37,071 bases of DNA, from NCBI GenBank assembly GCA_030698395.1, contig JAUYKW010000022.1, positions 1 to 37,071 of the forward strand, written 5' to 3'. The notes beneath the pieces are model-generated. The model did not search any database. It was not told the DNA's origin and worked only from the letters and a program-made list of their open reading frames with translations. The stretch is from a bacterium. GTDB lineage: Bacteria > Patescibacteriota > Patescibacteriia > UBA9570. The position numbers and the translations under genes are program-made. Positions 2,176-32,574 of this stretch are shown one piece after another; position 1 is the stretch's first letter; each line of letters opens with the position of its first letter.

Positions 2176-3699
2176 TTACTTAATATTTTCTTGCTTCTTA
2201 ACCCATTTCTGTTTAACTCCCGACTTAAAGTATGCTGGATCCTCATAACGCCAAAACTTAAGTCTAGGTACTGCCCGATCTTTTAAATAAGTATGCAGTT
2301 CTTTATATTCTGCATTACGCTCATACAAATTAGTCATTATATTTTTTAACAACGACTCTTCTAACTCAACTGTTTTTTCAACATCTTGTTTAAGTTCAAC
2401 ATTAACTTCAAGATATTGATCATGATTATCATCAAATTTTGTTTCAAGCGTAAATTTACCGGTCACAAAATCTAAAAATTCATTCTGCATCATAACTTCA
2501 CGAATATTTTCAGGATAGATTTGCAGACCATATAAGGTTGTAACAAAATCACTTCTCTCAAAAAGATACACAAACGGCAATTTCCTTATACTTTCACTAA
2601 TGCCTAGTTCATCAGCCTTCTTTTCGGCATCTACACCAATTTCATCCAATGCTTTAGTTGCGTCATCATAAGAAAAAATACCTCCTTGATCTCCTATTGC
2701 ATATCTAATAAGAGGAATAGCGTTGTCACCTGTTAATAGTAGTTCTCCATCAGCAGCTTCGAAATTAATAAATAGTGGATTATATTGTGCTAATGTTGGA
2801 GTCTTATGCGTAGCAGAAAATAGGTTAGAAAACAACTCATCATTTTTCAATGCTAATGATCTGAGAAAGATAGTAAATGGAGTTTCCGAACCCATAGCTC
2901 CTAAATCAGCAGAACCGTAGATATTCATTGTATCTAAATACTTGTTCTTTACATGAGCAGTATCAGATAAATAATCTCTAAATTGATCATTAAACCCTTC
3001 AGCTGCAAATAAAAGGCGTAAGTTTAGTATTTCCAAATTTATACCCTTGCTTACTGCTTCATCAATAATATCTTTAACAAAAGGAGGGTAACCAATTAAA
3101 ATTGTCTGCGCATAATTTGGCGCCAACTTTGTTAATGTATTAAGTATCTGTTGCTTATTAATTCCTGGCGTAATAATAGACATAGAATAATCACCCTCAA
3201 AACCAGCAATTTCAAAGGCCTTATACGTTATTAACCCACCAATCCAAACCCCCATACTAAAACCATTTATAACAAGAATAGGTCCAGAATTACCATGAGA
3301 CGAATTATCGATAAATTCACGCAACATAACAGAATATTGCCAATCTAATTGCATGGTTCTTTTAAAATAGAATGGTTCACCAGTTGAGCCAGAAGTTGAA
3401 GTTATGACCGACACTCCATCCATTTTTCCATCCCAACCCAATGCCTCCATTGGATATTGCTTAAGATAGGTTTTTTTATCCATAATAGGCAAAGTCTGAA
3501 AATCTTCCCACGTCCTAATCTGTCCTACTTTAACATCATTTCTCTGTAAAAAATCTTTATATGCAGGTACTCGCTTTGCAGCTTCATGAAAAATCTTAAG
3601 AGCGCGCTCTCTACCTTTCTCTACCCAAATATCACTATTCCAACTTTGTGTAACTTTCCGGATTTCTTCTGCTGAATATGATTCTAAAATATTGGACAC
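2176..3699 (-). CDS. PaaK/LuxE-like adenylate-forming ligase
   Basis: 507 aa; ATP-binding motif TSTSGSTGEPFYFKR, NIYGSADLGAMGSETP, LLLTGDNAIPLIRYAIGDQGG, typical of phenylacetate-CoA ligase-like enzymes. Confidence 0.85.
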   Translation of the reverse strand: MSNILESYSAEEIRKVTQSWNSDIWVEKGRERALKIFHEAAKRVPAYKDFLQRNDVKVGQIRTWEDFQTLPIMDKKTYLKQYPMEALGWDGKMDGVSVITSTSGSTGEPFYFKRTMQLDWQYSVMLREFIDNSSHGNSGPILVINGFSMGVWIGGLITYKAFEIAGFEGDYSMSIITPGINKQQILNTLTKLAPNYAQTILIGYPPFVKDIIDEAVSKGINLEILNLRLLFAAEGFNDQFRDYLSDTAHVKNKYLDTMNIYGSADLGAMGSETPFTIFLRSLALKNDELFSNLFSATHKTPTLAQYNPLFINFEAADGELLLTGDNAIPLIRYAIGDQGGIFSYDDATKALDEIGVDAEKKADELGISESIRKLPFVYLFERSDFVTTLYGLQIYPENIREVMMQNEFLDFVTGKFTLETKFDDNHDQYLEVNVELKQDVEKTVELEESLLKNIMTNLYERNAEYKELHTYLKDRAVPRLKFWRYEDPAYFKSGVKQKWVKKQENIK

Positions 3700-3709
3700 A
3701 ATACTATAA

Positions 3710-4759
3710 TTATAAAAAAATTGATTCTGCTAATTGATCAGCTACATAACTAGTTGAACGATTCTGCTCACGAGCAAGTTGACTAATTTTTTTAACTGTC
3801 TCATGCACACCATCAATTCGTTTTAAAACTCGAACTTTATTATAGCCACCTTCCTCTAATTCATCAACAACGTTAATTAATCCACCACAATTAGCAACAT
3901 AATCAACAATATATAAAATATTTTTCTCAAACAAACTTTCACCAACCTCTTTCTTGCTTAATTGTCTATTTGCCGCACCACAAATTATCTTAGCTTTCAT
4001 TTGAGAAACATCATCTAAACTTAACTCATTACTTAACGCACAAGGAGCATAAATATCTATATCCAATTGTTTAATCTTATCATTGTCTACAGGTATTACA
4101 GTAGGCACAAGTTGTAATAATTTCTGAATTGCATCTTCTTTAATGTCAGATACATAAATCTCAGACTTATCATTACTTAATAAACGTGCTAATTCACCTC
4201 CGACCTTACCTACACCCTTAATTGCAATCTTTTTTCCACTTAAATCACTCGAACCATCAAGTTCCATCACTGCCGTTTGCATAGAATAATAAGTACTCAA
4301 TGAAGCATATGGTGAAGGATCGCCTGCTTTTTCACTATGTCCAATAAAAAACGGACATGTTTTAAGCATATACTGAACATCGGCTTCGCTAATCCCAACA
4401 TCTTCGCCAGTATAAAATTGTCCATCAAGATAATTTATCACTTCAGCATAAGCTGATAACAACTCTGGAGTCTTAATTTTGTCAGGATCACCCATTATAA
4501 CTGCTTTCCCACCACCGTAAGGTACTCCAGAGATAGCACACTTATATGTCATCGCCTTGGACAAACCAAGTACATCTGCTAAAGCTTCGTCTTCAGATGC
4601 ATAAGGAAACATACGTGTTCCACCAACTGCTGGTCCTAAATTTGTATTATGAATAGCAAGAAAACCAATTAACCCACTAGCCTCATCAGTAAATTTAATA
4701 ACCTTTTCATGATTTGAAAATTCTTCCAAAGCTATATTGTCTAAATTTGTTATATTCAT
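3710..4759 (-). CDS. Glu/Leu/Phe/Val-type amino acid dehydrogenase (leucine dehydrogenase-like)
   Basis: 349 aa; VGGTRMFPY, MTYKCAISGVPYGGGKAVI, TGEDVGISEADV, KGVGKVGGELARLL, ICGAANRQL, NCGGLINV. Confidence 0.9.
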   Translation of the reverse strand: MNITNLDNIALEEFSNHEKVIKFTDEASGLIGFLAIHNTNLGPAVGGTRMFPYASEDEALADVLGLSKAMTYKCAISGVPYGGGKAVIMGDPDKIKTPELLSAYAEVINYLDGQFYTGEDVGISEADVQYMLKTCPFFIGHSEKAGDPSPYASLSTYYSMQTAVMELDGSSDLSGKKIAIKGVGKVGGELARLLSNDKSEIYVSDIKEDAIQKLLQLVPTVIPVDNDKIKQLDIDIYAPCALSNELSLDDVSQMKAKIICGAANRQLSKKEVGESLFEKNILYIVDYVANCGGLINVVDELEEGGYNKVRVLKRIDGVHETVKKISQLAREQNRSTSYVADQLAESIFL

Positions 4760-4762
4760 AAT

Positions 4763-5875
4763 CTATATAATTTGATCCATGTTAAATGTATACCTTCCGG
4801 ACGGAACATCCTTTTTATTTAAAATGCCCCTGATAAAATAAGTTAAGACTGCTCCACGCAATAAAGAACACTCTGCAAGTTGTGGTATACCAATAATACT
4901 CTTGCCTATTGCATCGAATGATTCTTTTAATCTATCAACTAAATACTCCTCTCCAACAAAATCCTTGCATAATTGTGTGAACTCTTTTAAATCAGATTTC
5001 TTAAACGCCGGTGAAATAATTTTCTTCATTACATCTGGTTTCAAATGCCCATTTAATATTTCTAAATCGACCTCTATATCATAACGTTCAATATCAATAA
5101 TAATATTTGAACCATTACCAGTAACCATAATTACTGGAATCTTATTTTCTTTTGCCAATTCACGTATTTTAATCTTCAACTTGAGTGCATCCATCTCTTC
5201 CACAATAATATCCAATTTAGGTTCTAATAAAAATTTTTCAATATTTTCTTCATTGAGACCGCTGTCAAAAATATCTATATTGCCATATGGATTTATTTCA
5301 TATACCTGCTGTGCTGTTAATGTTGCTTTGTTAATACCAATGTTACTAATACTTGCACGAAATCGATTTAAGTTCGACATCGAAAACTCATCATTATCGG
5401 CAAACTTCATATTTTCACAACCTCCTTCTAGAGCAACACACGTGGCAGCTGAATTTCCTACATTAAGTCCAACAAAACCAACTAGTGAATTTTTAAAAAC
5501 ATCTTGTTCTTCCTGCGTAATTAACAATTTGTTTCTAGATGTATGTAACTCATAATAATCTCGTTCATCAAGAATATGTACTAATTTTCCTGTCCACGGA
5601 AAATAAACCCATTTACCATCATAAAGTTTTACTTTAGATTTAGAATTATTCTCTTTTACTTCTGCCTTTAATGCATGTGGATTACGAATTAATACTAATT
5701 CATCGAACTGCGATTGATATGAATCAATTACGTTTCTAACTTTACCGGCTTCGATAAGCTCATCAACCTTTTTTTGGTCACCTTCTATAGACAAATCAAA
5801 TATTAACGGTTCAACTAATGAGGAATCATTATCTTTAATTGATAACTCTTGTAACCTCTCAAATAATATATTCAT
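4763..5875 (-). CDS. ThiF/E1-like adenylyltransferase, resembling the ThiF part of Rv1355c-type proteins
   Basis: 370 aa; VGFVGLNVGNSAATCVALEGGCENMKFADNDEFSMSNLNRFR, then VEEMDALKLKIKIRELAKENKIPVIMVT. No CXXC zinc motif pair seen. Confidence 0.85.
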   Translation of the reverse strand: MNILFERLQELSIKDNDSSLVEPLIFDLSIEGDQKKVDELIEAGKVRNVIDSYQSQFDELVLIRNPHALKAEVKENNSKSKVKLYDGKWVYFPWTGKLVHILDERDYYELHTSRNKLLITQEEQDVFKNSLVGFVGLNVGNSAATCVALEGGCENMKFADNDEFSMSNLNRFRASISNIGINKATLTAQQVYEINPYGNIDIFDSGLNEENIEKFLLEPKLDIIVEEMDALKLKIKIRELAKENKIPVIMVTGNGSNIIIDIERYDIEVDLEILNGHLKPDVMKKIISPAFKKSDLKEFTQLCKDFVGEEYLVDRLKESFDAIGKSIIGIPQLAECSLLRGAVLTYFIRGILNKKDVPSGRYTFNMDQII

Positions 5876-5880
5876 ATCTT

Positions 5881-6918
5881 CTATACAGTAACTAGCTTTG
5901 ACTTTACTGGATGCCTTGGTGAAAATGAATCTACTGAATCTGCATAACCCACTGCAAATATAAAATGTGGGATTTTTTCTCCACCAATCACATTCTTAAC
6001 TTTTTTATGTACATCGCCAATTTCAAGTGAAGCAACATAGATTGATGTATTGAGGCCATTTTTATTAAAAAATAACATTAATCTTTCTGCCAATCGCCCG
6101 CTATTCAACCAATCCTCCTTACTATTTGTATCACTGGTGATTACGCAAAGGTATGGTGCAGATGAAATGACATCAGAACATAGCTTTCCTATTTTGTTAC
6201 CAATATTAACACTACGAATAATATAAGGTAACACTACTGATAAAGGTGTATTAACGCCTAATGAATATCCAGGCATTCCAGCCCGTTTACTAGTAAAATT
6301 ACTATTAATCCATTGCGACATTTCTTTTCTAAATAAAGGATCACGATATGCTTCTTTTACCGCGTCTGCTGTTAACTGGGAAATATCATTTATTTTTGTT
6401 TTATCCCTTATAAATTTAATTTGCATTCCAGCCGTATTATTCAATTGCACTGCTTCTTCTAAAAAGCTTAAAGGAACATTTTTATCTTTATATATACTAC
6501 GACTATTAAATCTATTTTTTATAGCGTTAAACAATCCATGAGGATCCTTTTTTATATTATCTTCAGAATCGATAAAAGCAACTTCAGCAACAGTATTACC
6601 ACCTTCTTTTACGTACTTATAACTACTATAAATACCAAAATGTTTTGCGGCCACAATAATGTTTTCCAGACAACACCCTAAACTTATAAATAAATCTCTC
6701 TTTTGTGGATCCCCATAAACAATATTAATATCTTCATTATATTCGAGATAACATTTATTATCTTGAACTCTAAATAACCACGGCTGACTATTATGTGTCG
6801 AAGGAGCAAGAACGGCATAATTTAAAACGAACTCTATCTTATCATCTAGAGTACCTAATTTATTAAATTCAGATGAATCAAGAGCTCGAACTTGTTTTTC
6901 ACTCTCCTTTCTAGACAT
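5881..6918 (-). CDS. Nitroreductase-family flavoprotein (Acg/Rv1355c C-terminal-like)
   Basis: 345 aa; NYAVLAPSTHNSQPWLFRV, RDLFISLGCCLENIIVAA, GRLAERLMLFFNKNGL. Confidence 0.85.
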   Translation of the reverse strand: MSRKESEKQVRALDSSEFNKLGTLDDKIEFVLNYAVLAPSTHNSQPWLFRVQDNKCYLEYNEDINIVYGDPQKRDLFISLGCCLENIIVAAKHFGIYSSYKYVKEGGNTVAEVAFIDSEDNIKKDPHGLFNAIKNRFNSRSIYKDKNVPLSFLEEAVQLNNTAGMQIKFIRDKTKINDISQLTADAVKEAYRDPLFRKEMSQWINSNFTSKRAGMPGYSLGVNTPLSVVLPYIIRSVNIGNKIGKLCSDVISSAPYLCVITSDTNSKEDWLNSGRLAERLMLFFNKNGLNTSIYVASLEIGDVHKKVKNVIGGEKIPHFIFAVGYADSVDSFSPRHPVKSKLVTV

Positions 6919-6950
6919 TTACTCCTAATCCATTAATAATAGGCTAAATT

Positions 6951-6969
6951 TATCATACTAAATATGATA
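6951..6969. promoter_or_regulatory. Operator-like palindrome TATCATA-CTAAA-TATGATA
   Basis: Perfect 7-bp arms with 5-bp spacer, immediately downstream of the predicted minus-strand -10 box. Confidence 0.55.
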
Positions 6970-6971
6970 CC

Positions 6972-6999
6972 ATTATACTGATTAAAAAAAATAATGCAA
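6972..6999 (-). promoter_or_regulatory. Predicted sigma70-type promoter of the nitroreductase-ThiF-LeuDH-PaaK unit
   Basis: Minus strand: -35 TTGCAT (6999..6994), 16-bp spacer, -10 TATAAT (6977..6972). Overlapped by dyad AATTCATT (6998..7005)/AATGAATT (7025..7032). Confidence 0.6.
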
Positions 7000-7049
7000 T
7001 TCATTTAGTTTTAATAACTATTGCAATGAATTAACATTATAAATTTTAC

Positions 7050-7598
7050 CTATTTTATACTTTTATTATAATCATCATCTGATTTTTTACTCTGCTTAAG
7101 AATTCCCCTAATAAATTCTGCTTTATTAATTTTTTTTGTCTCAGCAAGCCAAGTTAAGTAATTATCCAAGCTAGGTGTTAATCTTAACGTAAATTTTATA
7201 CTTGGAACCTCGCTCTCTTTATCTTCAATGACTTTTCGACTCAAAAAAATATGAATAACATCACTAATATTGGATTCCGTATATGATTTTATTTCTAATG
7301 ACTTTGGTATATTTTTTCGCCTTAGATGCGCCAAAATTTCTCTTGGTCTGTTATTTTTTTTATATAAACAAAGAGTCGGTTTCTGCAAAATTATTGCCTG
7401 AGCTAACACATAATGCATATCAGGAGACGTATCAGCAATATCAATAATTACCCCATCAACCCAATCAAGTACACTCAAAGCTTGTGGCTCTCCTACATAA
7501 ACATAAGCATCTTTAAAAGTTGTCCATACTTGGCAATTTTCATTTCGCGCAAAACTCGCAAAGTCTACACCAGTTTTATTAACAATAAATATTGTCAT
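7050..7598 (-). CDS. NDT-like Rossmannoid domain fused to a C-terminal ribbon-helix-helix domain
   Basis: 182 aa; VDGVIIDIADTSPDMHYVLAQAIILQKPTLCLYK resembles nucleoside 2-deoxyribosyltransferase-like folds. C-terminus IKFTLRLTPSLDNYLTWLAETKKINKAEFIRGILKQ is RHH-like. Confidence 0.65.
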   Translation of the reverse strand: MTIFIVNKTGVDFASFARNENCQVWTTFKDAYVYVGEPQALSVLDWVDGVIIDIADTSPDMHYVLAQAIILQKPTLCLYKKNNRPREILAHLRRKNIPKSLEIKSYTESNISDVIHIFLSRKVIEDKESEVPSIKFTLRLTPSLDNYLTWLAETKKINKAEFIRGILKQSKKSDDDYNKSIK

Positions 7599-8581
7599 AA
7601 ATCAAAAAATTCATCATGTTCAATATTCCAAAACAAATCTTTAAATTCCTTTACAGAAGCAGCTTTGTCAACACAAATCATCGTTTTTGCAACAACGGCC
7701 GGGAAGGTCGCATTACAAACATGAATTATATTTTCACCTACATTAACAACCTCACCGCTACTTAGTATTACAACAGGAATATTGGTTGGTAATTTGAGAA
7801 TCTTTGATATTGCGTATTCATTACATCCTAAAATAACAACCGCTTTCTTATTATCAATAATAGAATTAGGCATTTTTAAACTTGGATTTAAGTCAAAAAT
7901 ATCTATATCTGTCGAAAATGAAAAATCAACTGTTGGCTGTGAAACAAATCGCTTACTAGCTCCTGCTAATAACTTTATGCCTAATTGAATTTTAGCCACA
8001 TCGCTTTCCCCGAAAGATGCAAAAATATCAGCATCATTATAAACTGGCCTTATTGCTCTCACAGCACGCACGATTTTTGAACCATATGCAAGCAACACTC
8101 CACTGCAATCAGATAATGCTAATTGTATGGCAGACACTAAATTTGTCCGCAAACTCAATTCCCGATACCTCATCTGTTCCTCAGAGCTCAATGACAAACT
8201 GCTTTTTTGCAGATAATTTATCCATGATATACCGGTAAAAATAACTGGTTTTCCAATGCTATGTATACAAAACCTCATTAAACTTGCAACGTATTCTACA
8301 TTATCGCTACTGTGGATAATTACAAAACCGTCATAATCATCATAATCTCTCAATATCTCTTGGCCAATTTTTGAAACCATACCCCAATCAACGTCCACTC
8401 CATTGACATTATCAATGTAAACAATATCAACATCAGAAAGCAAACTAATTTCAATAAATGAAGAAAATAGTTTATCTAGTTTCTTATCACTATCCACACC
8501 TAATTGCGATAGACCGCCTGTATATATTATCTTAACTTTTTTTCTTTCCCCTTCACTTATCATAAACGAACTATACTGCAA
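7595..8581 (-). CDS. Asparaginase-family protein with divergent catalytic motifs
   Basis: 328 aa; IIYTGGLSQLG at the TGGTI position, DGFVIIHSSDNVEYVASLMRFCIHSIGKPVIFTG at the HGTDT...KPVVLTG region. Overlaps the next gene by 4 bp (ATGA). Confidence 0.7.
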   Translation of the reverse strand: MQYSSFMISEGERKKVKIIYTGGLSQLGVDSDKKLDKLFSSFIEISLLSDVDIVYIDNVNGVDVDWGMVSKIGQEILRDYDDYDGFVIIHSSDNVEYVASLMRFCIHSIGKPVIFTGISWINYLQKSSLSLSSEEQMRYRELSLRTNLVSAIQLALSDCSGVLLAYGSKIVRAVRAIRPVYNDADIFASFGESDVAKIQLGIKLLAGASKRFVSQPTVDFSFSTDIDIFDLNPSLKMPNSIIDNKKAVVILGCNEYAISKILKLPTNIPVVILSSGEVVNVGENIIHVCNATFPAVVAKTMICVDKAASVKEFKDLFWNIEHDEFFDL

Positions 8582-14503: not shown

Positions 14504-16156
14504 TTAATCAATCGTCAACGGAATAGTGATTGTAAAGGTTGTTCCTTCACCTAGTTTTGAATCAAACTTAATTCTTCCACCATGATGTTCAGAAATACTT
14601 CGCACAATATAGAGTCCCAATCCAGATCCAGTAGGATCTTTCATGGCTGCCTCTTTACCACGAAAAAACTTAGTAAATAATTTTTCCTGAGTTTCATCAG
14701 ACATACCAATGCCACCATCTACAACTTTAATAATTACATTATCTTCTTCTTTAGAAAGCATTATTTTCACTGCGCCGCTCTCATGAGAATATTTAATAGC
14801 ATTATCAATTAAGTTTCGTATCGCTATTTTAATCTTTTGTCTATCAAAGTTCATATGATCAATGCCAGCAGTAACTTTGTTAACCAAAGTAATGTTCATT
14901 CTCTCTGCATGCACCGCAGATTCTTCAATAACCTGATTAACTGTATCAGACATAGAACCCTCAGAAAATTTATAGGGAAACCTTCCTTCTTCAATCTCAG
15001 AAACATCCAATAAACTATTTACTATTTCAATAACTTCATTATTTCTTTTAAAACCTTTATCTAATAAATCATGTTGTTTGTCTGAAAGCTTTCCGGTATC
15101 TCCATCCAGCATGATTTTAAATAACCATTTCAAAGTTGCTAACGGTGTTCTTAATTGATGAGCTGCTACCGAGATAAAATCAGATTTCATTTGATCAAGA
15201 TCTTTCTCACGCGTAATATTATGCAAAATAATCAACGATCCAATTGTATATCCCCGAGAATCAGCCATCTGTAATGCAGTTGCTTGCAATACGATTCGAT
15301 CATCCTCTTCTATGATATCAATCTCCTCACTTCGATATACGGTATCATCTCCAGTTTCAGTGATGAAATGTATCAATGGCTGCAATGACGTAGAAAAATC
15401 ATGTGGCTTTAAAATTCCTGAACCAACTTGATTTAATCTTACCTGCAAAACTCGCTGTGCATAAGGATTCATCAATAAAATATGACCCTCACGATCAAGC
15501 ATTATTATACCATCGACTAAATTATCAATAATAGCCGCAATTTTATCACGCTCTGAAGCAATTCCACTTTCCCGAGATCTAATTAAATTACTAATAAAAG
15601 CAGCAAAAAATGATGTGAATGTTAAAATAAATACGACAGTTACAACATTATTGCTTGTTACTCCAAAATTTCCATAAAAACCAGGATCAAAATAAAATCT
15701 ATTATAATGTGGCAAAATTGCATAATACTCCAAAACAATAACACCTATATATAAAGCAATCGTAAAAATTGAAAAAAGTATTATCTGAAACTCCCGGAAT
15801 AAGATAATTGCAATAAATATTGTAAAGAAATAGAACAAGAACGATAAACTTTCAACGCCACCTGTAGTATATAAAACCAAAGTATATACAAGTTGATCTA
15901 GTACAACTTGTAACACACTAACAATAGATAATCCCCTTCTACTAATATTTACTGGATCTCGTTTCAAATATAAATAATAAGCAAAATTATATGAATAAGT
16001 AACAAATAACAAACCAAAAATTCTAAAATCAAATTCTGCAACATCAATAACTTTTTGCACAATTCCCAGAGCAACAATACCAGCATGTAAAAGCCACCTA
16101 CTGGCTACAATATATTGAAGGGTTTGAATTCTTTTTAATTTATCTTCTAAATTCAT
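14504..16156 (-). CDS. Membrane sensor histidine kinase (multi-TM, PAS, HisKA, HATPase)
   Basis: 550 aa; IIDNLVDGIIMLDREGHILLMN (PAS), DFISVAAHQLRTPLATLKW (H-box), NLIDNAIKYS (N), VDGGIGM, GSGLGLYIV. Confidence 0.93.
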   Translation of the reverse strand: MNLEDKLKRIQTLQYIVASRWLLHAGIVALGIVQKVIDVAEFDFRIFGLLFVTYSYNFAYYLYLKRDPVNISRRGLSIVSVLQVVLDQLVYTLVLYTTGGVESLSFLFYFFTIFIAIILFREFQIILFSIFTIALYIGVIVLEYYAILPHYNRFYFDPGFYGNFGVTSNNVVTVVFILTFTSFFAAFISNLIRSRESGIASERDKIAAIIDNLVDGIIMLDREGHILLMNPYAQRVLQVRLNQVGSGILKPHDFSTSLQPLIHFITETGDDTVYRSEEIDIIEEDDRIVLQATALQMADSRGYTIGSLIILHNITREKDLDQMKSDFISVAAHQLRTPLATLKWLFKIMLDGDTGKLSDKQHDLLDKGFKRNNEVIEIVNSLLDVSEIEEGRFPYKFSEGSMSDTVNQVIEESAVHAERMNITLVNKVTAGIDHMNFDRQKIKIAIRNLIDNAIKYSHESGAVKIMLSKEEDNVIIKVVDGGIGMSDETQEKLFTKFFRGKEAAMKDPTGSGLGLYIVRSISEHHGGRIKFDSKLGEGTTFTITIPLTID

Positions 16157-16524
16157 GAAATATTTGGTGCTTTAGAATAATGTGGAATAATATATTCAAC
16201 CGGTTCACGCATTTGCGCTAAAATATCTACTGGGGCACTTAAAGCTGAAGGCAATACATACAATTTAGCTTTTTTACAATAGGCTAAGGTGTTGCAAATT
16301 GTAACCAATATTCTGATGAGAGTAAAGGACTCTGCCTGATTTACCACAACGATATTATCTAATGGATAGTCCTGTACTAAACTATTGATGACTTCTAATA
16401 CGTGTTCCGTTTTTGGTTTTTGCATTTCCTCCTGCTTTACTTCTCCCGTTGAAAAATCACCAAACGTTAAAATTAGTTTGTCTTTTTGAGAAGGATTACA
16501 ATATAATGTTTGACTACTTGGCAT
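16153..16524 (-). CDS. TsaB-like protein, short and motif-divergent
   Basis: 123 aa; VVVNQAESFTLIRILVTICNTLAYCKKAKLYVL parallels the TsaB GPGSFTGLRIG...LAY region; ATGA overlap with the kinase gene. Confidence 0.5.
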   Translation of the reverse strand: MPSSQTLYCNPSQKDKLILTFGDFSTGEVKQEEMQKPKTEHVLEVINSLVQDYPLDNIVVVNQAESFTLIRILVTICNTLAYCKKAKLYVLPSALSAPVDILAQMREPVEYIIPHYSKAPNIS

Positions 16525-22709: not shown

Positions 22710-24971
22710 ATGAAAATTAATAAAAAAATATCCAGCATTCTAGGATTAACGCTAAGTTTAGCAATGTTTATCTTATTTTCTGCTAGTGCTAATGCAGCTA
22801 CCTTTACCGTTAACATTACAACAGATACAGATGATGCATCAGCTGGAAATGGAGCATGTGTAGATGCCGGAGGAAAGTGCAGTCTGCGTGCAGCCATCCA
22901 AGAAGCCAACGCCCTTGCAGGTGACGATATTATTACCCTGCCAGCTGGTACGTATACACTTACTCAAGTAGGTACTGATGATAATGCTGCTGCTGGAGAT
23001 CTAGATATTATAACTGACATTACAATCAATGGTGCTGATACAAAAACTACAATTGTAACAGCTGGTGGTAGCACTGGAATTGATGACAGAGTATTTCATA
23101 TGAGTGATGTTGGTGAATTAAAAATGTCTAATCTGACAGTTACCGGTGGATACTCTGCTAGTAGTGGCGCTGGAATTTTTGTATTTACAGGACTTTATGA
23201 CACTTTTGTATTCAGTCTTGATCACGTAAATGTAGAAGGTAACGAAATCACTGGTACATCCACAGGGGGTGGGATTCATTTAGAGTCCCTTAACAATGCG
23301 ACGATAGTTAATGCGTCCATCACAAACTCTTCAATTATTAATAATATATCCGGTGTTTCTGGAGGTGGCATGTATATTACAGCAAGTAATCAAGGAGAAT
23401 TGAACACTAATATAACCAATACCACTATTGCAGGTAATGATTCTCTAACAAACTATGCAGAAGATGGGGGTGGTATGTATATTTATAACGATGCACTTTC
23501 CAAGTTAGATCTTAATATCCAACACAGCACAATAACTGGAAATTCAGCATCAAATGGCGGAGGACTTAGTGCTAGTGACGACGGTTCTGTTTTTGATGTA
23601 AGTATTGGTTCTACTATCATTGCTGATAATACTGCATCTGGTTCCTTTAGTAACTGCGGTGGTACTGCATCACAAACATCTAATGATTACAACATAGAGG
23701 GAGACACAAACGAGTGCGATTTTAATGGCACCAATGATCAAGCTGCTGTTGATGATACAACTGTACTAAACGTAGCTGGTTTAGCCGACAACGGTGGTGA
23801 CACAAAAACTGTTGCGTTGATTGGATTAGCTTCAAATCCAGCGATTAATTATATTCCAAATGCTGCTTGTCGTGATGCCACAGGATCTTTACTTACCACC
23901 GATCAACGGGACGAAGAAAGATCTGGTTATTGCGACGTAGGATCGTATGAATATCAAGACAATGCAAATCCTGTTATCACAGTTCAAGGATTAAGCCCTG
24001 ATTCTGTAGAGTGTGCAGTTATATACACTGATGATGGTGCGACCGCAACTGATAATATTGATGGCGACGTTAGCGGTAATATTATAACCGATACCAGCGA
24101 TGTTGAAACGGACACTCCAGGAACATACACTGTTGAATATTCAGTCACCGATTTATCAAATAACGACGTTACCGCTACCAGAACTGTAACCGTTGCAGAC
24201 ACCACTGATCCAAGCATCATTTTAACCGGCGATGATACAGTAACAGTTAAACAAGGAGATTCATATACAGATGGAGGGGCAACTGCGGCTGATACTTGTG
24301 ATTCTAACATTGCTATTGCTAGCTCCCCTACCGGCACATTGGAAACAGATTCCAGTGATGTAAACACAGATGAAGTTGGTAGTTATACTGTTACATACAC
24401 AGCAACTGATGCTTCTAGTAATGTTGCAACCACCACCAGAACTGTGAATGTAATCTCGCGTGGCAAAGTTACCAAAGCAACTCCTTTAAAGAAAGGTAAA
24501 GTTAAACTTACATACAAAGATGGTTCTACATTAACCTGTACTGCTTTTAACAAAGGAAAGCCTAAAGCTAAATTATCTACTGATAAAAACAGACTAGTTG
24601 TTCTGAAAAAAAATGGCACTAAAATTAAAGTACTAGATGCAAAAAACTGCGTAAAAAAATCTTCGAAGAAAGTTAGAAAAAAAGCTCAAAAAGTTGTTAA
24701 GTTAGGAGTTTATAACTATTACAAAGCAAACAAGAAAAATGAAGTAATTGTAGCTACAAAGAAAAATGGTAAACTGAAAGTTACTTCGTTAAAGCTTGCT
24801 CCTAACAAGAAAGGTAGTGGTTTAGCAAAGAGAAATACAAAAACTATAGAACCATTCACATATAAGAAATTCCAATTGAATAAGAAAAAGAAAAACATTC
24901 AATTAAAAAACAGTGGTAACGTGATTCAAGAGTACCGTGTTAATAAAAAAGCTAGATTAAAGTTTATTTAA
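22710..24971 (+). CDS. Secreted CSLREA-type right-handed beta-helix protein with DUF5011/Ig-like repeats and Lys-rich C-terminal domain
   Basis: 753 aa; signal peptide, CSLRAAIQEANALAGDDIITLPAGTYTL, GGGMYI repeats, two Ig-like repeats (DDGATATDNIDGDVS...), basic C-terminus. Confidence 0.88.
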   Translation: MKINKKISSILGLTLSLAMFILFSASANAATFTVNITTDTDDASAGNGACVDAGGKCSLRAAIQEANALAGDDIITLPAGTYTLTQVGTDDNAAAGDLDIITDITINGADTKTTIVTAGGSTGIDDRVFHMSDVGELKMSNLTVTGGYSASSGAGIFVFTGLYDTFVFSLDHVNVEGNEITGTSTGGGIHLESLNNATIVNASITNSSIINNISGVSGGGMYITASNQGELNTNITNTTIAGNDSLTNYAEDGGGMYIYNDALSKLDLNIQHSTITGNSASNGGGLSASDDGSVFDVSIGSTIIADNTASGSFSNCGGTASQTSNDYNIEGDTNECDFNGTNDQAAVDDTTVLNVAGLADNGGDTKTVALIGLASNPAINYIPNAACRDATGSLLTTDQRDEERSGYCDVGSYEYQDNANPVITVQGLSPDSVECAVIYTDDGATATDNIDGDVSGNIITDTSDVETDTPGTYTVEYSVTDLSNNDVTATRTVTVADTTDPSIILTGDDTVTVKQGDSYTDGGATAADTCDSNIAIASSPTGTLETDSSDVNTDEVGSYTVTYTATDASSNVATTTRTVNVISRGKVTKATPLKKGKVKLTYKDGSTLTCTAFNKGKPKAKLSTDKNRLVVLKKNGTKIKVLDAKNCVKKSSKKVRKKAQKVVKLGVYNYYKANKKNEVIVATKKNGKLKVTSLKLAPNKKGSGLAKRNTKTIEPFTYKKFQLNKKKKNIQLKNSGNVIQEYRVNKKARLKFI

Positions 24972-27943: not shown

Positions 27944-30403
27944 CTAAATATTTTTTAAATTCCCTTTTTTATTTAATAGATATTTCACTAATAAGCTATT
28001 TTTTCCATTTTTAATGGATACATATTTATCCTTCTTCTTCATTTTGAAGTTATCCTGCTTGTATGTTTCAAAAAGTTTAGTGTCTTTTCCTCCAATCTTT
28101 CCAGTCTTTGGTTTGAAGGTAAAATGAGTGGTTCGAATTTGTCCTTTCTTGCGTGTTACTATGATTACATCGTTCTTATTATTTTTTGTATAATAATTCT
28201 TCCGATACAATTTTACTTTGCTTTGTTTCTTATTTAGTAATGTCTTTGAACTTACTGTAGAACCATCTATTACATCAAGAGTTTTAATTTTTGTTCCAGC
28301 TTTATTTGCTACAACTACCCACTTCTTATTTTTATGCAATTTTGCCAATGGCTTTTTCGTGCCAGTATTGAAAGCTGTAAATGTTTCAGTTAAACCATCT
28401 TCATATTTAATCTTAACCTTGTTATTCTTCAATGGTGTTATGGATACTGCATTACCATGATCTACCAATTCAACTACAGTAACTGTTCTCGTACTATTAG
28501 TAGAATTACTAGAAGCATCTGTTGCCGTATAAGTTATTGTATATATGCCCGGGGTATCACTATCAACTGGATTATCAGTTACTAATTCTGGACTAGCATC
28601 ACAAGTATCAGCCGTAGTAACTCCAGCATCAGTATATGTATCACCCTGATCTACCGAAACTGCACTAGCACCAACCAAAGTTACTGTCGGATCAATAGTA
28701 TCAGTTACATTCACAGTACGTGTAGCTGTACCAGTATTATCATCAGTATCTGTTGCAGAATGTTCCACGCTATATGATCCAGGAGTATCTTCGTCTAGAG
28801 CAGACGTATCAATATTAGTGCTAACAGATCCGTCATTATTATCTAACGCAGTAGAACCGGCATCTGTATAGGTAGTAGAACACTCCAGCGAAACTGTACT
28901 TGCACCAGTTAGTGTCACAACAGGTCCTGTTGAGTCTGCTTCAAACGCACCAATATCACAAGCGCTACCATTTGGCCGCGAATTTCCCCGCTGATCAGTT
29001 ATAACTGTAGTAGCACTATTATCAGTACAAGTTCCAGCATCCTTAGCTGGCGAGGTTCCTTGTAAAGCAATCGTATAAGTTTCACCGCCGTTATCTTCTA
29101 AGCCTGCCACCGCTAGTTTAGGGTCGGTACTTTCTTGATCTCCAGTATTTGCAAATATACAGGTTGTACCACTATCTATATTATAACCATTCGATGTTAA
29201 TAATCCGTTAGTTAAAGAGGTTGTACAATTTTTATGTGCTACTGAATCTGCTGTGTTATCGCTTATAATAGTATTTTTAATATTAAGATCAACAGTATCA
29301 TCACCTCCGTCCTCTAAATAAATACCAGCTCCGCTAGATAAGGCTGTTGAATTACCAATAATAGTTGAATGCGAAATATTTATTGTAGTTGTGTAAACGC
29401 CAGCATTATTGCAACTAGCATACAAACCACCGCCTCTGCCAAAAGTTGCATGGGTAGCAGAATTATTAGCAATTGTAAAATTATTAATATCAACCGTAGT
29501 ATTTCCCCAACAGGAAGACATGGCAATCCCAGCTCCTCTGGATGATGAATTGCCACTAATTGTGCTTCTAACAATGTTTGTATTTCCCACAGAAAGTATA
29601 CCGCCACCAGCAACACCAGACGTTGAATTCTGCATTGTATTATTTGTTACAGAACTATCAGTTAATGTGAGAGTGTAATCTTGATGTCCAAAATAAATTC
29701 CACCAGCATTCACACCACCTTGATTGTTATTAATATTAGTTCTGGTAATATCTGCATCACCCCCACTAATATACATACCACCTGCTACATCATTTACTCC
29801 TGATGTATTAGACGAAAAAGTAGAATCTGTAATCGTTAATGTTGCTATTCCAGATTTATATATACCACCACCACCTTGAGCTGTAGTATTATTGATAACA
29901 TTCACCGAATCGATGGTAAATGTCGAAAGTGTAGATATCCCACCACCACTTTCACTACCAATTGCATTACCACCTTGAATGGTCAAATTATCAATCGTTA
30001 CATTAGTGCTCGCAATTGCTTCAATTGCCCGATCCTCCAAAGTTACACCTTGAGCATTAATGATTGTGCTTGCAGCTCCTGCTCCACTTAAGATATCACT
30101 CCCTGTTGTGTCTCTAAAATCTAAATCACCAGTTGCATTAGAATCTTCATCTCCAGCAACATTTGGAATACTCAAGGTATATGTTCCGGCTAGTAATGTA
30201 ATAACATCATCGGTTGTAGTACCGTTTGCTTGTTGAACTGCTTCTCGTAACGAACAATCACTCGGAATATCAGTACAGGGAGTCGCTCCCCCATCAAGTT
30301 CGTCAGTAAAAATTGTAACTGCGTAGGTAGCCGCATGAACTGAACCTACACTGAATAGAAAAAGTGTAACAGATAAAATTATAATACTAATTCTTTTTGT
30401 CAT
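27944..30403 (-). CDS. Secreted CSLREA-type beta-helix protein with DUF5011/Ig-like repeats and Lys-rich C-terminal domain (paralogue of 22710..24971)
   Basis: 819 aa; signal peptide, CSLREAVQQANGTTTDDVITLLAGTYTL, beta-helix repeats, YTDAGSTALDNNDGSVS-type repeats, basic C-terminus aligning with the paralogue. Confidence 0.88.
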   Translation of the reverse strand: MTKRISIIILSVTLFLFSVGSVHAATYAVTIFTDELDGGATPCTDIPSDCSLREAVQQANGTTTDDVITLLAGTYTLSIPNVAGDEDSNATGDLDFRDTTGSDILSGAGAASTIINAQGVTLEDRAIEAIASTNVTIDNLTIQGGNAIGSESGGGISTLSTFTIDSVNVINNTTAQGGGGIYKSGIATLTITDSTFSSNTSGVNDVAGGMYISGGDADITRTNINNNQGGVNAGGIYFGHQDYTLTLTDSSVTNNTMQNSTSGVAGGGILSVGNTNIVRSTISGNSSSRGAGIAMSSCWGNTTVDINNFTIANNSATHATFGRGGGLYASCNNAGVYTTTINISHSTIIGNSTALSSGAGIYLEDGGDDTVDLNIKNTIISDNTADSVAHKNCTTSLTNGLLTSNGYNIDSGTTCIFANTGDQESTDPKLAVAGLEDNGGETYTIALQGTSPAKDAGTCTDNSATTVITDQRGNSRPNGSACDIGAFEADSTGPVVTLTGASTVSLECSTTYTDAGSTALDNNDGSVSTNIDTSALDEDTPGSYSVEHSATDTDDNTGTATRTVNVTDTIDPTVTLVGASAVSVDQGDTYTDAGVTTADTCDASPELVTDNPVDSDTPGIYTITYTATDASSNSTNSTRTVTVVELVDHGNAVSITPLKNNKVKIKYEDGLTETFTAFNTGTKKPLAKLHKNKKWVVVANKAGTKIKTLDVIDGSTVSSKTLLNKKQSKVKLYRKNYYTKNNKNDVIIVTRKKGQIRTTHFTFKPKTGKIGGKDTKLFETYKQDNFKMKKKDKYVSIKNGKNSLLVKYLLNKKGNLKNI

Positions 30404-30948: not shown

Positions 30949-32574
30949 CTAATTATTTAAGATGTCTCGAATTGCTTCAGATGTTCTTTTATAAATTTTT
31001 CCCTGATCAAGCTTATACTTATAAAACTGTTCTTTATGAATAAGTCTTTCAATTTCTTTATTTATCCCTGAAAGTAACACATGTTTATTATTCTTCTTTA
31101 ATACTTCAACAATTTCACCTAAATAATCTATACCATCTACATCAGCATAAAATGAATTACGCAATGAAATTATCACATAATTATTATCCTTTATTCTTTG
31201 TACAGCTTCTAAGTGAGCGGGCATATTTATATATGTAAGAGTACCTGATATTTTATATACTACAATATCAGAATCAATCACTTCTTTTTTCAGAAAATCG
31301 TTCTTTAATAGGGCCTCGGTCATCTTTTCATTTTTCCATAACAGAACTTCTGTTTGTCCATAAGATACCTTATTTACAAATATCAACAAAGCAATAACAG
31401 TACCAAAGAGTATTCCAATAATTGGATCTTCTACCACAACAATCAATGCAACGAATAACGAAAGTACAAAGGCAGTTTTTTCATTATCTATCAGATGAAT
31501 AAAATGTTTTTTCTCAATCATACCCATAGCTACGATCACCAAAATTGATGAAATAACTACCATCGGTAAGAATTTAAAAAAACTAATAAAGAAAATTGTA
31601 ATAATTCCAATAAAAATTGAATTAATAACAGCTGATGTTTTGTGATTTGCGCCACTTTTAATATTTAGTGCCGTTCTAGCAAGAGCGGCAGTCGCTGGCA
31701 TACCCCCCATTAAACCTGAACCAATATTTGCAATTGATAATCCAAATACCTCTTTTCTACGACTAAACTTTGTTCCGGTAAGTGAGTCTGCGATTTGACC
31801 TGATAATAAAGTTTCCAATATAGCTATCACTGCTGTTGCAAACGCAAGAAACCACAAATCTTGTGTTAGTAAAATCTGCCAATCAAAGCCCGCTATGGGA
31901 TTTTCAAATAATGTTGCACTAATAGCCTCGTATTTATCACCCAGTGTTACCAACTCCGGAGTATACCCAATCTCCGGCAAAATCATCATAAGTACAATGC
32001 CAAGAAATGCTACTACCGCCGCACCAGGAATTTTTTGAAATTTCTTATTCCAAAATATTATTAAAAGTGTACTAAAAATAAAAAGTAAAAAAACTCCCCA
32101 ATGCGCTTGATTTAAATTTTTAAAAATAATAAATATATTTTCTATAAAACTTTCTGTTTTATGTATATCTGCCATCCCTAATGCACTATCCAACTGGCCG
32201 AATCCTATAATAAATGCAACGCCAAGTGTAAATCCATTCACGACGGATCGAGGTATAAAAATAATGTATTTATCAAGCCGAAATATATACGCAATCATAA
32301 TAATTATTCCAGACAAAATTGCCACCATCGGTAATACCTGATACCCATGTATTAATGTATATGAAACTAGCACACCTGCAAGCGCTCCTGTTGGACCAAC
32401 AATATTGTAATTACTACCTCCTAACAATGCACCAATTAATCCAGCCCAAAATGCAGTAATAATGCCTTGCGTCGGCGTTGCACCTGATGTAATTGCAAGT
32501 GCTAGCGATAACGGAATAGTAACAATACTGACAGTTAGTCCTGATTTCCAGTTTTGTAAAATTTTTGATTTCAT
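30949..32574 (-). CDS. SulP-family anion transporter with STAS domain
   Basis: 541 aa; multi-TM, LSLALAITSGATPTQGIITAFWAGLIGALLGGSNYNIVGPTGALAGVL; C-terminal STAS-like region. Confidence 0.93.
   Translation of the reverse strand: MKSKILQNWKSGLTVSIVTIPLSLALAITSGATPTQGIITAFWAGLIGALLGGSNYNIVGPTGALAGVLVSYTLIHGYQVLPMVAILSGIIIMIAYIFRLDKYIIFIPRSVVNGFTLGVAFIIGFGQLDSALGMADIHKTESFIENIFIIFKNLNQAHWGVFLLFIFSTLLIIFWNKKFQKIPGAAVVAFLGIVLMMILPEIGYTPELVTLGDKYEAISATLFENPIAGFDWQILLTQDLWFLAFATAVIAILETLLSGQIADSLTGTKFSRRKEVFGLSIANIGSGLMGGMPATAALARTALNIKSGANHKTSAVINSIFIGIITIFFISFFKFLPMVVISSILVIVAMGMIEKKHFIHLIDNEKTAFVLSLFVALIVVVEDPIIGILFGTVIALLIFVNKVSYGQTEVLLWKNEKMTEALLKNDFLKKEVIDSDIVVYKISGTLTYINMPAHLEAVQRIKDNNYVIISLRNSFYADVDGIDYLGEIVEVLKKNNKHVLLSGINKEIERLIHKEQFYKYKLDQGKIYKRTSEAIRDILNN

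Follow-up and report, generated by a model that had tools for sequence, protein, structure and literature searches.

The 37,071-nucleotide stretch of DNA analysed here (the window) is one entire contig, JAUYKW010000022.1, from a bacterium of the UBA9570 lineage of Patescibacteriota with a genome of 1.32 Mb that is 97% complete. Four tightly packed genes lie on its minus strand between positions 2176 and 6918, as a first-pass annotation of the window had described. The first gene (5881–6918) encodes a flavin mononucleotide (FMN)-dependent oxidoreductase, or nitroreductase, of the Acg/Rv3131 family with 345 amino acids (aa), which is a predicted desaturase. It is followed by a gene for a predicted ThiF/E1-like adenylating cyclase (4763–5875, 370 aa), one for an ELFV amino acid dehydrogenase with an aromatic-type pocket (3710–4759, 349 aa), and one with a GTG start for a PaaK-like adenosine monophosphate (AMP) ligase (2176–3699, 507 aa). 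In this order, the gaps between them are 5, 3, and 10 bp. Profile matches agree in outline with the four families named earlier. Further downstream on the same strand, positions 3–1424 encode the N-terminal 474 aa of a seven-transmembrane (7TM) sensor histidine kinase, the rest of which lies beyond the contig end. Thus, the four genes stand as a cluster, but the kinase, which we count as part of the system, had been missed.

The 750-bp spacer between cluster and kinase (1425–2175) has no convincing gene. It holds only short open reading frames (ORFs), for example at 1750–2016, that belong to no cross-locus family, and no Rfam match to a structured RNA was found in the window, this spacer included. 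In G003, a genome of the same family, the kinase directly follows the PaaK gene without such a spacer. At the other end, the upstream spacer (6919–7049, minus strand) is the probable operon start, with AGGAG immediately 5′ of the first ATG. Extension of the operon upstream into 7050–8581 was rejected, as the G003 counterparts lie apart from the cluster. There, the next upstream genes differ from those of the window and the homologue of 7050–7598 is ~3.8 kb distant, so the cluster ends at 6919–7049. The single promoter that had been predicted for the four genes could not be established, because promoter-like matches are not enriched (53 versus 47.2 ± 6.6 in shuffled DNA).

Linkage of these genes was examined across genomes. 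ThiF homologues were picked regardless of their neighbours and the surroundings were then annotated, with homologues present in 25 of 381 genomes of the class and 64 of 380 genomes of the phylum, the latter drawn from a phylum in which families number in the hundreds and genomes measure about 0.5–2 Mb. All four enzymes occur together at 24 loci, including the window, in 13 families of the phylum. Because the genes recur together so widely, a grouping by chance is refuted, and the four genes are a genuine, conserved biosynthetic cluster; the conserved co-occurrence that the first-pass annotation had proposed as a check was indeed found. ThiF and PaaK alone occur together in 47 of 380 genomes, versus 9.1 expected (p = 5e-38).

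The ThiF protein matches NF005901, the model of Mycobacterium tuberculosis Rv1355c, with E 2.2e-79 and 267.5 bits, its residues 16–369 covering the N-terminal half of the model, whereas models of ThiS/MoeB activators give at most 57 bits. The nitroreductase matches the C-terminal half of NF005901 with 74.6 bits, and NF047509 with 194.1 bits (cut-off 199). With the two genes split, neither reaches the single-protein cut-off of NF005901 (476 bits), and a ThiF–FMN oxidase fusion at a sister locus, L099, matches the full-length model with 452 bits. On these profile matches, the pair is the split equivalent of Rv1355c/TrzS and of TyzB/TyzC, and the earlier comparison with a split Rv1355c-type protein holds. 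The same comparison had left the function of that type blank, which is out of date because Rv1355c is TrzS of tryptazolone synthesis, a fusion of ThiF cyclase and flavin oxidase whose products are N-acyl tryptazolones (PMC12856293). TrzS converts N-acyl tryptophan to an oxazolone by ATP-dependent cyclisation and an O2-dependent desaturation (PMC12856293). TyzB and TyzC together perform the same chemistry on tyrosine, and OxzB on tyrosine or phenylalanine, the known pathways starting with an acyl-coenzyme A (CoA)-dependent N-acyltransferase, OxzA, TyzA, or TrzA (PMC12856293, PMC10404671).

The AlphaFold2 model of the ThiF protein (mean predicted local distance difference test, pLDDT, 93.6) has AclA (9EGB) as its nearest fold in the PDB, followed by ThiF and MoeB. 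Alignment with the profiles of AclA, TcdA, ThiF, and MoeB finds the adenylation site intact, and besides the start Met, residues G136, G140, D160, N168, R171, K183, and D229 are invariant in 48 homologues. D229 may be the counterpart of TrzS D217, and by analogy the substrate here would be a free N-acyl amino acid. The nitroreductase profile aligns with Acg (2YMV) over 14–326 with E 9.5e-34, and the FMN-site motif APSxxNxQPW and R140 are conserved. The enzyme is predicted to be a TyzC-like desaturase, like the C-terminal half of TrzS/OxzB.

An E1-like enzyme with a flavin oxidoreductase is also the logic of azole formation in ribosomally synthesised and post-translationally modified peptides (RiPPs), and the pair could install azoles or azolines in a precursor peptide, as had been suggested for this locus. 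However, when small ORFs were collected at 82 ThiF loci, no family was found at more than 3 of the 82, the recurring ones including an S15-like ribosomal protein, and no YcaO was present among the neighbours examined. Furthermore, such a path would leave the ligase and the dehydrogenase without a function, and the closest characterised ThiF enzymes use free N-acyl amino acids. The peptide route is therefore disfavoured and highly improbable. Phage defence of the E1–E2 kind was also rejected, with weak E1-like matches only and no E2 partner among the four proteins.

The dehydrogenase has its best curated match in the ScyB tryptophan dehydrogenase model (E 3.8e-90). At 302 bits versus an equivalog cut-off of 600, it is not ScyB itself, and no scytonemin genes accompany it. 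Catalytic K68, K80, and D115 (3VPX numbering) are kept. On the other hand, the pocket residues of leucine dehydrogenases, A113 and V291, are replaced by G and L, both identical to those of tryptophan dehydrogenase TrpDH (5B37). G occupies position 113 in every cluster dehydrogenase covering that site, while position 291 is L, M, or V in members of the leucine/tryptophan-dehydrogenase type and A in two 406-aa members (L049, L050). In an engineered leucine dehydrogenase, A113G with another change widens the pocket (PMC9401909). Because the pocket is as in 5B37, an aromatic substrate is more likely than leucine. The first-pass label of a leucine-type dehydrogenase thus does not fit, and with an aromatic-type pocket, the accompanying role for branched-chain keto acids becomes doubtful.

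The PaaK-like ligase barely registers in Pfam and scores 61.8 bits against the PaaK equivalog cut-off of 646, the fold being shared nonetheless. Its AlphaFold2 model (pLDDT 89.9) has the PaaK fold, with PaaK2 carrying phenylacetyl adenylate as the top PDB match and the CoA-free aryl ligases AjiA1, NatL2, and ClxA as the next ones, and the motifs SGSTG, RYxxxD, and a C-terminal Lys motif are conserved. PaaK-fold ligases that make amides or esters directly from the adenylate are known (PMC12519233, PMC7204872), among them ClxA, which forms amides (PMC12519233). ClxA and NatL2 share the fold and, independently of CoA, transfer an aryl acid that they have adenylated to an amine or hydroxyl group (PMC12519233, PMC7204872), although identity is only ~17% and the window enzyme is longer (507 versus about 430 aa). 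From the modelled fold, we predict that the ligase activates an aryl or acyl carboxylate and couples it to an amino group. In the window genome, no ketoacyl synthase and no CoaE above cut-off were detected, while control genomes contain them in 14 of 14 and 10 of 14 cases, respectively. Home-made acyl-CoA donors are therefore unlikely in this organism, which fits CoA-free chemistry.

Because every enzyme of the cluster has metabolic cousins, one could regard the genes as ordinary ones for cofactors (ThiF/MoeB of thiamin or molybdopterin synthesis) or catabolism (of amino acids, or by a phenylacetate-CoA ligase) that are adjacent by chance. The ThiF score, 267 bits to Rv1355c versus 57 or less to ThiS/MoeB activators, the low PaaK equivalog score, and linkage over 13 families with two fusions all argue against it, and we give this explanation hardly any weight.

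One of these fusions joins ThiF and FMN oxidase as mentioned above, and the other joins dehydrogenase and PaaK (L013). The modules are also exchanged between loci. Among 55 PaaK loci, 24 have the dehydrogenase and 10 an aromatic amino acid lyase (PF00221), but none has both (p = 0.003), and the PaaK tree requires at least three switches between the two. At other loci, the slot of PaaK is taken by a LuxI/FeeM-type acyltransferase or a distant relative, which never occurs alongside PaaK (p = 3e-5). This mutual exclusion places PaaK in the acyl-transfer role. FeeM/LuxI-like enzymes are found at sister loci L015, L135, L137, L139, and L143, the L015 GNAT matching both FeeM and Autoind_synth, and TyzA has been likened to BjaI and FeeM (PMC10404671).

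Several variants were observed along with these exchanges. At L012:7248-13732, two tandem PaaK–ThiF pairs with a methyltransferase between them precede a single 7TM kinase, and at L015:8075-10185, the LuxI/FeeM-type enzyme beside ThiF is accompanied by a 7TM-GAF-kinase and by two 7TM proteins, of 225 and 226 aa, that lack a kinase part. An alpha/beta hydrolase, which could release or destroy the product, lies between ThiF and kinase at six loci (L013:9160-10032, L052:10022-10897, L053, L055, L056, L057) and is fused to the FMN oxidoreductase at L119. Where the 4-methylideneimidazole-5-one (MIO) group is expected, most cluster lyases (L093, L096, L097, L105, L106, L115, and L117) show T-S-G in place of A-S-G, and they have an S-H selectivity pair that looks histidase-like. 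The NQE pattern of histidases occurs among cluster lyases in L046 only.

The window kinase matches PF16927 (HisKA_7TM, E 1.1e-6; genome match G000:C19:735-1370), and a further region of this fragment, besides the 7TM part, is read as GAF-like. Relatives carry complete kinases in the slot of this partial one. Contig C11, starting with a 154-aa kinase C-terminus, was considered as its remainder, but no overlap joins the two contigs and the assignment is unproven. A synthase gene conserved beside a sensor kinase is what a quorum-sensing-type pair demands, and at 69 of the 82 ThiF loci, a 7TM histidine kinase of the PF16927 type lies no more than 6 kb downstream in the same orientation (median distance 1.07 kb), the one in the window being partial. 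Of the 13 loci without it, 7 reach a contig edge or stop near one. In the 40 ThiF genomes tested for PF16927, 0.16 genomes would be expected to have the kinase in that position by chance, and 30 of the 40 have exactly one such kinase. PF16927 is present in 53 of 64 ThiF genomes versus 112 of 316 others (p = 3e-12). Outside the ThiF set, the 7TM kinase comes directly or almost directly after PaaK at 9 of 12 PaaK loci.

In genomes without ThiF, 7TM kinases are preceded by a LuxI/FeeM-type (L162) or DDAH-like (L174) enzyme, or by a Methyltransf_20-like or other methyltransferase-like gene (L164, L166, L168, L170, L172, L177), which suggests a general theme of synthase plus 7TM kinase in the phylum. 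Because the same kinase type follows these other small enzymes, a receptor is favoured over a mere regulator of production. The only other 7TM match of the window genome, G000:C29:5303-5938 (L158:5279-6652), belongs to a 457-aa protein without a kinase domain beside a 728-aa ORF. ThiF proteins of 409–418 aa from families f107/f138 (L100, L101, L103, L108), possibly representing a different use of the enzyme, lack an adjacent 7TM kinase or PaaK. One gammaproteobacterial locus, L016, came from a scan with a single ThiF protein as query; it contains ThiF and nitroreductase and lacks the kinase.

We conceive that the cluster and the kinase probably make and sense a small amino-acid-derived signal, a possibility raised in the first-pass annotation that we judge to be the best reading. 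More specifically, the chances are about even that they form a synthase and receptor module, in which a CoA-free synthase produces an oxazolone-type signal derived from an aromatic amino acid for its own receptor. By analogy with the characterised enzymes, the dehydrogenase would first interconvert an aromatic amino acid and its 2-oxo acid, providing a building block. The PaaK-like ligase would then adenylate a carboxylic acid and couple it to the amino group of an amino acid without CoA, standing in for the acyl-CoA-dependent N-acyltransferase. Next, ThiF would activate the N-acyl amino acid by adenylating its carboxylate and close an oxazolone (azlactone)-type ring, which the FMN oxidoreductase would desaturate. 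Finally, the adjacent 7TM histidine kinase would sense the product and signal via a response regulator. Of this scheme, the gene content and linkage, the exchange of modules, the folds, and the conserved active sites are observed; the individual reactions and their order, the product, and the signalling are inferred.

Several points weigh against this proposal. The cluster has no known product, and oxazolones were not seen in Stieleria, the producer of stieleriacines, despite its ThiF and nitroreductase genes (PMC12479983). The flavin step of the known enzymes needs O2, which may or may not suit the lifestyle of this organism. The window kinase is 750 bp off and cut by the contig end, its kinase domains being unseen there, and six ThiF loci that are not cut by a contig end have no kinase (L047, L100, L101, L103, L108, L131). 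A sensor beside a biosynthetic cluster may also regulate production instead of receiving a signal. In addition, nitroreductase, dehydrogenase, or both are missing from some modules, so products must vary.

The main rival to the signal proposal is that the compound acts against neighbours or hosts, as an antimicrobial, a surface-active lipid, or a metal ligand, with the 7TM kinase turning on its production in response to an external cue. Relatives of N-acyl tyrosine have antimicrobial activity (as cited in PMC12856293), antibiotics induce oxazolone production in proteobacteria (PMC12856293), and pairs of a kinase and biosynthesis genes are common generally. However, transporter and immunity genes do not recur in the clusters, and, as in synthase–receptor pairs, kinases of this one 7TM family come after small synthases of very different kinds, the LuxI/FeeM type included. 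We regard this rival as rather unlikely.

It is less likely still that the module signals with a product other than an oxazolone, such as an acyl amino acid, a dehydro-amino-acid amide, a diketopiperazine-like compound, or another ring made by ThiF. The Stieleria case speaks for it, as do the loci with LuxI/FeeM-type enzymes, which have no nitroreductase, and the acyl donor, which in this cluster would be a 2-oxo or aryl acid in place of a fatty acid. On the other hand, both halves match the Rv1355c/TrzS model, a full-length fused version exists in a sister cluster, and TrzS, TyzBC, and OxzB all yield oxazolones.

Returning to the oxazolone-type signal, it is a toss-up whether the loci together represent a widespread, undescribed class of CoA-free, amino-acid-derived signals of Patescibacteria. 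In its synthesis, dehydrogenase would be exchangeable with aromatic lyase and PaaK ligase with LuxI/FeeM-type acyltransferase, methyltransferases and hydrolase would be further modules, and sensing would fall to a cognate 7TM kinase, often the sole one of its kind in a cell. What oxazolones do physiologically has been called a major unresolved question, their likeness to cell–cell signals being noted (PMC12856293, 2025). With an oxazolone-type enzyme pair tied to one receptor family phylum-wide, a signalling role becomes directly testable. For mostly unculturable bacteria living on other cells, such a class would be a concrete chemical language, and it would hint at how signals arise without fatty acids or CoA.

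Elsewhere in the window, a second histidine kinase (14504–16524, 550 aa), similar to sister-cluster kinases but without a 7TM label, lies inside an mraZ/mraW/penicillin-binding protein/Mur region. Immediately upstream of this kinase is a 123-aa ORF, possibly its response regulator. Also encoded in the window are two large proteins (22710–24971 and 27944–30403), both carrying bacterial surface immunoglobulin-like domains, and a sulfate-permease-type transporter (30949–32574).

Among known systems, pairs of a LuxI homologue and a sensory kinase and CqsA/CqsS-like pairs were predicted in genomes of the candidate phyla radiation (CPR) by a 2020 survey (PMC7567580), the text of which has no ThiF, oxazolone, or phenylacetate-ligase system. 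Those pairs, from organisms of the same kind, resemble the present locus in that a synthase gene adjoins the gene of a sensory kinase, and some sister clusters have LuxI/FeeM-like enzymes, but the synthase chemistry here differs and takes several genes. A literature search, with subscription papers outside its scope, gave no paper joining 7TM kinases with CPR. The closest solved relative of ThiF over the catalytic region is AclA of Tenacibaculum discolor (PDB 9EGB-9EGD), on which the search found no paper and which lacks the ~90-residue N-terminal extension of the window protein. The nearest pathways are TrzAS (Rv1356c-Rv1355c) and TyzACB of Mycobacterium tuberculosis and OxzAB of Pseudoalteromonas rubra, which likewise combine a ThiF-type cyclase with an Acg-type FMN oxidase (PMC12856293, PMC10404671). 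The pair is split here as in TyzB/TyzC but fused in TrzS/OxzB, and the aromatic amino acid theme is common to both. The tryptazolone paper (PMC12856293) does not mention a histidine kinase, and fatty acid synthase and the CoA pathway were not detected in the host, for which the genome of the window was tested. Unlike those pathways, the window lacks an N-acyltransferase and has in its place a ligase of the PaaK type and an aromatic amino acid dehydrogenase, together with a conserved 7TM histidine kinase.

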